NCBI RefSeq assembly: GCF_024228675.1
Contig: NZ_CP100461.1
Span: 3,221,398-3,285,397 of the forward strand
From: Salinigranum marinum
GTDB lineage: Archaea > Halobacteriota > Halobacteria > Halobacteriales > Haloferacaceae
DNA: 64,000 bases
Direction of reading: 5' to 3'
A program made the position numbers and the translations under genes. Shown here piece by piece: positions 60,394-63,954 of the stretch. Numbering within the stretch: position 1 is the stretch's first letter; each line of letters opens with the position of its first letter. The notes under the pieces were generated by a model, which made no database searches, was not told the origin of the DNA, and saw only the letters and a list, made by a program, of their open reading frames with translations.

Positions 60394-61248
60394 ATGACAG
60401 AGGAGTTCGGCCTGATCGAACCCGAGGAGGGCGAGGGAGAGGGATTCGGCGACGAGTGGGAGGAGATCGACGTCTCCGACACGGACGCCGACCGCATCGC
60501 CCGCAAACGGGATCGGAAGTTCGACGAGTTCCGCAAACGGCTGAAGGACGCCGACCAGTTCAAGGTCGAACAGTCGGTGTTCGACGACGCGACCTTCGCG
60601 GCCATCTACAAGCTCGTCCAGGACGGACACGTCGAGGCGTTCGGCGGGCCCATCTCTACAGGAAAGGAAGCGAACGTCTACGAAGCACTGGGAGCAGACG
60701 GCGACATCGCCGTGAAGATCTACCGGATCAACGCCTCGGACTTCCAGCACATGCGCGAGTACCTCGACGGGGACCCGCGCTTCGAGGGGATCGGAAACGA
60801 CAAGGGCAAGATCGTGCTGGCGTGGACGCGCAAGGAGTTCGCGAACCTCGAACGCGCACGCGCGGCGGGCGTCCGCGTGCCAGAGCCGATCGCCGTCGAG
60901 CGGAACGTCCTCGTGATGGAGCTCGTCGGGCTCGTCGAAGAGCGGGCCCGGCGGCTCGCGGAGGTCACGGTCGAGAACCCCGAGACGGCGTACGAGGTGG
61001 TCCGCGAGTACATGCGACGACTACACGGCGCGGGGCTCGTCCACGGCGACCTCTCGGAGTACAACCTCATCGTCCACGACGGCGAACTCGTGGTGATCGA
61101 CCTCGGCCAGGCGGTGACGGTCCACCACCGCAACGCCGACGAGTTCCTCAGGCGCGACTGCCGGAACGTGGCGAGTTTCTTCACCCGGCAAGGGCTCGAC
61201 ACCGACCCCGACGACCTCTACGACTACGTGACGAGCACCGAGACGTAA
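60394..61248 (+). CDS. rio1: Rio1-family serine kinase
   Basis: A 284-aa atypical kinase for late 30S ribosome maturation. The nucleotide loop is STGKEANVY at 88-96, the ATP Lys K108 in IAVKIYR, the catalytic loop HGDLSEYN at 217-224 and the metal loop IDLGQ at 235-239. The first 55 residues are very acidic and vary between species. The gene lies between eif1A and the patatin fusion. Confidence 0.95.
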   Translation: MTEEFGLIEPEEGEGEGFGDEWEEIDVSDTDADRIARKRDRKFDEFRKRLKDADQFKVEQSVFDDATFAAIYKLVQDGHVEAFGGPISTGKEANVYEALGADGDIAVKIYRINASDFQHMREYLDGDPRFEGIGNDKGKIVLAWTRKEFANLERARAAGVRVPEPIAVERNVLVMELVGLVEERARRLAEVTVENPETAYEVVREYMRRLHGAGLVHGDLSEYNLIVHDGELVVIDLGQAVTVHHRNADEFLRRDCRNVASFFTRQGLDTDPDDLYDYVTSTET

Positions 61249-61278: not shown

Positions 61279-61317
61279 CAGTCAGCGACGACCCCGACAG
61301 TCCAGCACCGCTGACTG
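61279..61317. repeat. 9-bp inverted repeat downstream of rio1
   Basis: CAGTCAGCG (61279-61287) and CGCTGACTG (61309-61317) are exact complements around a 21-nt loop, 31 nt after the rio1 stop and before the patatin gene promoter. It may end the rio1 transcript or act as a regulator site. Confidence 0.45.
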
Positions 61318-61339
61318 TCGGACCGACGCGCAACTAGGG

Positions 61340-61346
61340 CTATTTC
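61340..61346 (+). promoter_or_regulatory. TATA-like box of the patatin fusion gene
   Basis: CTATTTC, 24-30 nt before the ATG at 61370. It indicates that the gene is transcribed separately from rio1. Confidence 0.5.
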
Positions 61347-61369
61347 GCTGACCGTCTTAGACGATCGAC

Positions 61370-63325
61370 ATGAGCGAGGACACACGCAGACGCGTCGCGA
61401 TCGCCTGTCAGGGCGGCGGGAGCCACACGGCCTTTACCGCGGGCGTCCTCGACCGTCTGCTCGCCGACCCGGACCCGTCCCACGAGATCGTCGCGCTGAC
61501 CGGCACGTCCGGCGGCGGCATCTGTGCGTTTCTCGCGTGGTACGGGCTCGCAGGCGCCGCCGGCGAGGCGGCGGGACGTGAACGGGCACGGGAGCTCATC
61601 GACCAGGTGTGGCGGGACATCGAGGCGAGCGATCCGGCGGTCGCCGCGGCGAACCGGATGGGCGTCTGGCTGACGCGCGCCCAGGACAACGGCGCGCCGG
61701 TCCCCCAACACAGCCCGTACGCCTCCGGCGTGTCGACGTGGACCGAGCGGTACCTCCGGGAGGCGCTCGAACGGGCGGTGCCGCCGGAGGCGCTCGAACG
61801 GGTCGTCGACGCACAGCGGGAGTCGTGGACGGGTCCGGCGCTCCACATCGGTGCCGTCGACGTCACCCGGGGGACGTTCCGGACGTTCACCGAGCGCGAC
61901 GTGACGATCGACGCGGTGCTCGCGTCGGCGGCGATCCCGACGCTGTTCAGGGCCGTAACGGTCGACCAGGAGGGCGAGCCCAGGCAGTACTGGGACGGAC
62001 TGTTCTCGCAGAACCCGCCCGTGCACGACCTGCTGGCGGGCGTTCCGACGGAGCGAAAGCCCGAGGAGATCTGGCTCGTCCGGATCAACCCACAGCGGCG
62101 CGACGATGTCCCGACCACGCTCGAGTCGATCGACAACCGGCGGAACGAACTCGGCGGCAACCTCTCGGTCAACCAGGAGCTCTCGTTCATCCGGCAGGTG
62201 AACGAGTGGGTCGCGGACGGCTCCCTGTCGAGGCGGTACCGCCGGGTGGCGGTGCGGACGGTCGGGCTCGACGAAGCGCGTCTGGACCCGCCGCGGGCGC
62301 TGAGCACGGCCTCGAAGCTCGACTGTCGACCCGGGTTCGTCGCCGAACTGGAACGGGCGGGACGGGACGCCGCCGACCGGTTCCTCGACGTGGAACGGAA
62401 CCGTCGACTCGTCCGCGGCACCGTCGACGCGGTCTGGAACACCGACAGTCCCGTGGCCGGCGTCTACCTCGCCGACGACTTCGAGTTGCACGCGGCCGGC
62501 CCCGACGGTGGCCAGGGGCCGCGGGCGTACGAGGCGTACGTCGCGCGGTTCCGCGCGGCGCTCGACGGTCTCTCGGTGCAGATCCTCGCGGACGTCGCCG
62601 AGCGCGACCGGGTCGCGCTCGTATGGAAGGGCCACGGCCGGCACGTCGGGCGACTGTTCGGCGTCGACCCGACGGACGAGGTGGTCTCGGTTCTGGGGGT
62701 CCAGATCGCCCGCGTGACGACGGATGAGGGGGGTTCGCCCGCTATCGCCGAGGCCTGGATGGACGTCGACGACGCCGGCTTCGAGATGGCGCTCGAGACG
62801 GTCGAGGGGACCGACGACGTCCCGGTGCCGCGGACGCCGGCGACGCCGGTCGTGACCGACCTGCGAAGCGCCGACGAGGGGCGTTCGATCGGCGTCGACC
62901 ACGCGGAACTGCTCTGGGGCGAGGGACTGACCGACCTGGCACGCCGGCTCGTCGCCCCCGATCACGTCTTCCGGCGGGCGCGCCGCGACGTTGAGGGGCG
63001 CGGGGCGTACCTGGCGCTCGTCGAGTCGTACCGGACGGCGTTTCCCGACCTCCGGGTCACGGTCCGCGATGTCGTCGCCGAGGGTGACCGCGTCGTCGTC
63101 CGTGCGGCGATGACCGGCACGCACGAGGAGCCGTTCGACGGCATCGACCCGACCGGACGACGCGTGGAGGCGCACTGGACGTTCGTCCACGAGGTGGCCG
63201 ACGGCCGGGTCGTCTCGACGGGGATGATCGACGACCACCGGTGGCTGCTCGACCAACTGTCCGCGCGGCCGATCCGGACAGGTCGGACGATCGAACAGTC
63301 CACGTCCACCGGTCCGCCGGAGTGA
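61370..63325 (+). CDS. Patatin-like phospholipase fused to two SnoaL-like domains
   Basis: A 651-aa protein. Residues 7-345 form a patatin-like esterase: glycine-rich oxyanion loop GGGSHT at 15-20, nucleophile S47 in GTSGG (45-49), catalytic D209 in YWDGLF. Residues about 345-475 (VWNTDSPVAGVYLADDFELHAAG) and about 505-630 (LWGEGLTDLARRLVAPDHVF, DLRVTVRDVVAEGDRVVVR, FVHEVADGRVVSTGMIDDH) resemble two NTF2/SnoaL-like (predicted ester-cyclase) cone folds. The second is typical of the SnoaL group. The catalytic set is complete, so it probably hydrolyses acyl esters, but the combination is unusual. It interrupts the eif1A-rio1-KH cluster with its own promoter. Confidence 0.87.
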   Translation: MSEDTRRRVAIACQGGGSHTAFTAGVLDRLLADPDPSHEIVALTGTSGGGICAFLAWYGLAGAAGEAAGRERARELIDQVWRDIEASDPAVAAANRMGVWLTRAQDNGAPVPQHSPYASGVSTWTERYLREALERAVPPEALERVVDAQRESWTGPALHIGAVDVTRGTFRTFTERDVTIDAVLASAAIPTLFRAVTVDQEGEPRQYWDGLFSQNPPVHDLLAGVPTERKPEEIWLVRINPQRRDDVPTTLESIDNRRNELGGNLSVNQELSFIRQVNEWVADGSLSRRYRRVAVRTVGLDEARLDPPRALSTASKLDCRPGFVAELERAGRDAADRFLDVERNRRLVRGTVDAVWNTDSPVAGVYLADDFELHAAGPDGGQGPRAYEAYVARFRAALDGLSVQILADVAERDRVALVWKGHGRHVGRLFGVDPTDEVVSVLGVQIARVTTDEGGSPAIAEAWMDVDDAGFEMALETVEGTDDVPVPRTPATPVVTDLRSADEGRSIGVDHAELLWGEGLTDLARRLVAPDHVFRRARRDVEGRGAYLALVESYRTAFPDLRVTVRDVVAEGDRVVVRAAMTGTHEEPFDGIDPTGRRVEAHWTFVHEVADGRVVSTGMIDDHRWLLDQLSARPIRTGRTIEQSTSTGPPE

Positions 63326-63387
63326 ACTCACGACGCCGCCGGCGTCCGCGACACCGTCGCCGGCGGCACCGGTCGCACGAAGGAACG

Positions 63388-63417: not shown

Positions 63418-63954
63418 ATGCAGCACGTGAAGGTGCCGCAGGACCGCATCGGAGTTCTCATCGGTGAAGGCGGTGAGACCATGCGCGAGATCGAGCGTCG
63501 CGCGGAGGTCCGCCTCGACATCGACTCCGAGAGCGGGAGCGTCGCCGTCGACACCGTCGGCGACCCCGTCGCGGGGATGGTGGCACCCGATATCGTCCGT
63601 GCCGTCGGTCGCGGGTTCAAGCCCGAGGCGGCGCTGTCGCTCCTCGACGACGACCTGCGCATGTTCGAACTCATCGACCTCGCGGACCAGACCCGGAACA
63701 AGAACGACCTCCAGCGGCAGAAGGGGCGGCTCATCGGCGAGAACGGTCGCACCCGCGAACTCATGGAAGAACTCACCGGTGCGGAGGTCGTCATCTACGG
63801 TTCGACACTCGGCATCATCGGTCAACCCGAGGAGGTCGAGGCCGTCCGCCGGGCGACGAAGATGATCCTTGACGGCGCACCCCACGGCGCGGTCTACTCC
63901 TTCCTCGAACGCAAGCACAACGAACTCACCCGCGGCTTCGACGTTCGGTCGTAA
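63418..63954 (+). CDS. KH-domain RNA-binding protein (archaeal Pno1/Krr1-like)
   Basis: A 178-aa protein with two KH domains, each with a GxxG loop: IGEGGETM in the first (residues 13-20) and IGENGRTR in the second (about 103-110). This family is the archaeal counterpart of eukaryotic Dim2/Pno1 and Krr1, involved in 16S rRNA processing and binding near its 3' end, and the gene is conserved next to rio1 in archaea. Its end is followed by 46 bp to the window edge. Confidence 0.93.
   Translation: MQHVKVPQDRIGVLIGEGGETMREIERRAEVRLDIDSESGSVAVDTVGDPVAGMVAPDIVRAVGRGFKPEAALSLLDDDLRMFELIDLADQTRNKNDLQRQKGRLIGENGRTRELMEELTGAEVVIYGSTLGIIGQPEEVEAVRRATKMILDGAPHGAVYSFLERKHNELTRGFDVRS

Follow-up and report, generated by a model that had tools for sequence, protein, structure and literature searches.

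A PhaZh1-family patatin fused to two SnoaL-like domains in Salinigranum marinum: a candidate second hydrolase of PHA

A gene that joins a patatin-like hydrolase to two SnoaL-like domains, between rio1 and a KH-domain gene, raises the question of what the fused protein does and whether its position tells anything about its role. The gene lies in a stretch of 64,000 nucleotides from Salinigranum marinum, here called the window, and coordinates without further label refer to this stretch. The first-pass annotation, made from the sequence by eye, had placed a patatin and two NTF2/SnoaL-like folds on one chain of 651 aa and had considered a two-step lipid or polyketide-ester enzyme. The architecture was borne out by the ORF, Pfam and profile comparisons, whereas the two-step function was not. 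Instead, we consider it somewhat better than even (roughly 55%) that the protein is a second, diverged PhaZh1-family hydrolase of polyhydroxyalkanoate (PHA) or its oligomers, carrying a tandem tail that lacks SnoaL catalysis.

The gene and the rio1-KH interval

The features of the locus are:

58540, tyrS
59706, eIF1A
60394..61248, + strand, rio1 kinase gene, upstream neighbour (NCBIfam NF041310)
61335..61345, + strand, TATA-like element tagggctattt, about 30 bases 5' of the ATG
61370..63325, + strand, patatin-SnoaL-SnoaL fusion gene, ATG start, 651 aa (ORF, Pfam and orthologues)
61370..62389, + strand, PhaZh1-family patatin domain, residues 1-340 (Pfam Patatin; 42% identity to PhaZh1), with GGGSHT at 15-20, the nucleophile Ser47 in GTSGG and Asp209 in DG
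62402..62797, + strand, D1, first SnoaL/NTF2-like domain, residues 345-476
62861..63277, + strand, D2, second SnoaL/NTF2-like domain, residues 498-636
63418..63954, + strand, KH-domain gene arCOG04150, downstream neighbour (NCBIfam NF010329)

The open frame at 61370-63325 is a genuine gene, since each of the three further species sampled from the genus has a fusion orthologue with 68-73% identity, and all three domains are under purifying selection, with dN well below dS. In the 651-aa protein, Pfam matched Patatin at residues 12-221 (5.5e-18) and SnoaL (PF07366) in two stretches (whole-protein E = 6e-42), and the patatin active site was found intact, as claimed from the motifs GGGSHT, GTSGG and DG. 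A 663-aa open frame on the - strand (61340-63331) runs antisense across the entire fusion gene and is a usual by-product of codon use in a GC-rich halophile; the orthologues and the low dN favour the + strand frame.

The fusion gene does sit between rio1 and the KH gene, and the order tyrS-eIF1A-rio1-fusion-KH was found in all four sampled genomes of the genus. The accompanying premise that rio1 and KH are normally adjacent does not apply to Halobacteria: among 69 haloarchaeal genomes, the two genes were within 400 bp of each other in just 17. The distance was 0.4-3 kb in 24 genomes and 3-12 kb in 11; in 16 the genes were far from each other or did not share a strand or contig, and one genome yielded only one of the two. 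Comparison of the eIF1A-rio1-KH neighbourhood across the class further revealed that the insertion of the fusion gene is not ancestral to the class; within the genus it is fixed in all four species sampled. Because the gap is broken in most haloarchaea examined and insertions between rio1 and KH are frequent, there is nothing special about the location, and the site tells little about function. A functional tie to translation was considered and dropped, since the gap is interrupted in most genomes and four of the fusions are located elsewhere, and the position would reflect an insertion in this genus that has no functional link to translation. In another species of the genus (G167), a further 1.8 kb is present between eIF1A and rio1 (L069 12313-14145), and so the core cluster accepts inserts at more than one point.

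The separate promoter suggested by the TATA-like box gained support from comparison: the core GGGCTAT is identical upstream of the fusion in all four sampled species, and the KH gene has its own conserved promoter box (cgcttaaacc), so that the two genes are probably promoted separately. About 17 bases 5' of GGGCTAT, a GACTGTC block (61313-61319) is likewise kept in all four species and could be the site of a regulator.

Patatin family, distribution and PHA synthase

The patatin part is 42% identical, end to end over 339 columns, to WP_004060664.1 of Haloferax mediterranei (pHME505), and GGGSHT, GTSGG with Ser47 and WDGLFSQNPP are aligned in both proteins. We infer that WP_004060664.1 is PhaZh1, because it matches the family best among the proteins of H. 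mediterranei and an SDR gene lies directly upstream of it. In published accounts, PhaZh1 is described as a granule-associated depolymerase with the lipase box Gly-Thr-Ser-Gly-Gly and with bdhA upstream (PMC7137286, PMC11205408, PMC4823750). No solved structure of this patatin family was found by sequence search. The genome of S. marinum has two PHA synthases and, on contig C3 (L080 9516-11331), a stand-alone PhaZh1 orthologue with 78% identity to the H. mediterranei protein, which adjoins an SDR (bdhA-like) gene and is about 46 kb away from a PHA synthase on the same contig. The fusion is not located beside bdhA or any pha gene. In the tree, the fusions form a clade (100/99) beside a second group, whereas PhaZh1 and the C3 copy fall into another clade, which places the fusion patatin in the PhaZh1 family but not among the PhaZh1 orthologues.

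Two arrangements among other relatives may be mentioned here. In genus g18 (L088 8120-9696; L110, L111, L112), a sister-clade patatin lies between the genes for seryl-tRNA synthetase and a Tsr3-like protein, and in four species a small, divergent SnoaL_2 gene adjoins it, so that a patatin and an NTF2-like protein are encoded side by side without being fused. Distant bacterial relatives from Skermanella and Roseomonas (L107 1492-4179, L109 1402-3954) directly precede a gene for a GntP-family permease, possibly an importer of hydroxyacids.

The same domain order was sought in other archaea and was found in eight genomes in total, four of the window's genus and four of other genera. Among 170 genomes of the family Haloferacaceae, full-length fusions turned up in the three further species of this genus and in one genome of another genus (G045); the class-wide search added G349 and G367, and searching the family of these two brought in G428, in which the fusion has the same coordinates as in a plasmid record of Haloarcula pelagica. 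None of tyrS, eIF1A, rio1 or KH is near the fusions of the four other-genus genomes, one of which is on the Haloarcula plasmid. As the patatin halves of all eight fusions constitute one clade (100/99), the fusion most likely arose once. The grouping of G045 with members of another family in the tree suggests transfer. A scan of genome contigs returned a stand-alone patatin as the sole match, a search with D2 gave no relative on viral contigs, and a PHROGs search gave no match. The open-access literature searched gave no account of a fusion between patatin and SnoaL domains.

The distribution of the whole patatin family follows that of PHA synthase. Among 391 haloarchaeal genomes, 122 contained a PhaZh1-family patatin and 222 a PHA synthase, and all of the 122 were within the 222; the synthase occurred without the patatin family in 100 genomes, neither was present in 169, and the patatin family without synthase in none. 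Fisher tests gave p = 1e-39 for genomes and 8e-10 at the genus level, values that correct for phylogeny incompletely, and within Haloferacaceae the comparison was 11/11 versus 27/~136. In the same 391 genomes, the presence of SnoaL, used as control, was unlinked to PHA synthase (102/170 versus 120/221, p = 0.30). All eight fusion genomes have a PHA synthase above the curated cut-off. In two of them (G165 and G166), each with two PHA synthases, the fusion is the sole PhaZh1-family gene. The strict co-occurrence supports a role in PHA metabolism for the whole PhaZh1 patatin family.

The tandem SnoaL-like tail

The SnoaL part, marked as the less certain one in the first-pass annotation, turned out to be correctly recognised. 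Scored separately in the genome search, the two copies reached 60.9 and 90.9 bits at a cut-off of 28.4, and among solved SnoaL-type structures the domain profiles made from the eight orthologues matched IdmH (6hnn) best, with 2.4e-20 for D2 and 1.7e-14 for D1. On the strength of these profile matches, D1 and D2 are assigned to the SnoaL (NTF2-like) fold; the AlphaFold pLDDT of 41 for the tail alone and 40 for the whole protein with one relative was too low for fold use. The two domains are homologous to each other (hhalign probability 99.8, 23% identity) and probably stem from a tandem duplication, with all D2 copies in one clade (99/98) and a weakly supported common origin of D1 and D2 in the tree. 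D1 evolves faster, with dN still below dS.

In SnoaL, Asp121 acts as acid/base, and Asn33, Gln105, His107 and His119 are essential (PMC6830212). IdmH has Thr131 at the position of Asp121 and Asn117 at that of His107, with His129 at that of His119; without the Asp121 and His107 of SnoaL, it is nevertheless proposed to be an enzyme (PMC6830212). Mapping of the SnoaL catalytic positions through IdmH onto the fusions showed that none of the 16 domains (8 D1 and 8 D2) retains an equivalent of Asp121, His119 or His107. The Asp121 position is occupied by Met, Val, Leu or Thr in D1 and by Met, Val or Ile in D2, the His119 position by Ala, Ser, Met or Thr in D1 and by Thr or Ile in D2, and the window protein has Gln, Ala and Met at positions 107, 119 and 121 in D1 and Phe, Thr and Met in D2. 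With His119 and Asp121 absent from all 16 copies, a second, cyclase-type step is unlikely, and we infer that the SnoaL domains are non-catalytic modules for binding or dimerisation. Loss of the SnoaL residues is no proof of inert domains, and IdmH may be taken as a warning that other chemistry is possible.

Possible functions and comparison with known systems

The two-step enzyme, in which hydrolysis of a lipid or polyketide ester by the patatin would be followed by cyclisation or another transformation of the product in the SnoaL domains, draws on the presence of two SnoaL folds under purifying selection and on the example of IdmH, which lacks Asp121 and may still be an enzyme. It is improbable, given that the patatin is of the PhaZh1 type and its family tracks PHA synthase, that the acid/base residues and His107 are replaced in 16/16 domains, and that no polyketide gene was present in the fusion neighbourhoods examined. 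A general phospholipase or esterase acting on membrane or neutral lipids, with a tail that binds fatty acids and an indirect link to PHA synthase through large, metabolically versatile genomes, is a more serious competitor, to which we assign a limited likelihood: relatives are annotated as patatin-like phospholipases by Pfam and NCBI, and the genome already has another PhaZh1. Such indirect linkage would not readily account for co-occurrence with PHA synthase in 122/122 genomes, when SnoaL, another common accessory family, has none. Moreover, the membrane lipids of archaea have ether linkages, and few ester phospholipids would therefore be available as substrates.

An anti-phage effector similar to the CBASS phospholipases is highly improbable. 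The region of the catalytic Asp weakly matched CBASS phospholipase models, including those of PADLOC, and there were weak matches to CBASS patatin structures, but the score of 18.4 bits compares with a family cut-off of 200, no nucleotidyltransferase gene lies beside the fusion, and fixation at one site in all four species sampled from the genus is unlike the behaviour of mobile defence genes.

The preferred reading, a second PhaZh1-family hydrolase of PHA or oligomers, builds on the domain order, the Ser-Asp dyad, the homology to PhaZh1, the co-occurrence with the synthase, the single origin of the fusion and the loss of the SnoaL acid/base residues. By analogy with PhaZh1, Ser47 and Asp209 would act in the cytoplasm and cleave the ester bonds in PHA or in its oligomers. 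The two NTF2-like domains might hold the polymer, the product or a second subunit, as a module that binds hydrophobic ligands, targets granules or dimerises. This claim is stronger for the PHA-related patatin than for the role of the tail. Since contig C3 already encodes an orthologue closer to PhaZh1 (78%), next to an SDR gene, the fusion may act on a different substrate than PhaZh1. That the tail constitutes a new PHA-depolymerase module, for conversion of the released 3-hydroxyacids or oligomers by a chemistry unlike that of SnoaL, as in the case of IdmH and its own substrate, for polymer binding or as a granule anchor, is a speculative option that we judge rather unlikely; NTF2-like PHA granule proteins were not found described in the open-access literature searched. 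In all, the fusion represents a known enzyme family in an uncommon form and not a new pathway.

PHA is a storage polyester and the cell's bioplastic reserve, and a depolymerase that carries its own NTF2-like module may be of interest for work on bioplastics. Deletion of phaZh1 in H. mediterranei did not significantly affect PHA mobilisation (PMC4823750). The two species that have no family member besides the fusion provide test cases.

Compared with known systems, the fusion resembles PhaZh1 in homology over the whole length of the patatin, in having no leader sequence by eye and in belonging to a family confined to genomes with PHA synthase. PhaZh1 itself has no SnoaL tail and directly follows bdhA, whereas the window protein has the tail and is encoded downstream of rio1. 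CapV-type CBASS patatin phospholipases have the patatin fold in common with the fusion, which has no cyclase partner and scores far below their family cut-off. SnoaL, AknH, IdmH and SnoL belong by profile to the same fold family as D1 and D2; they are single-domain proteins of polyketide clusters, whereas the fusion has two copies per chain with the catalytic His and Asp replaced. A counterpart in architecture is WP_284011472.1 of Haloarcula pelagica, which has the same order of three domains, aligns over 97% of the length at 43% identity, and is plasmid-borne among unrelated neighbours. Its annotation as 'ester cyclase' names the SnoaL part alone, a label that is misleading for fusion proteins of this kind.
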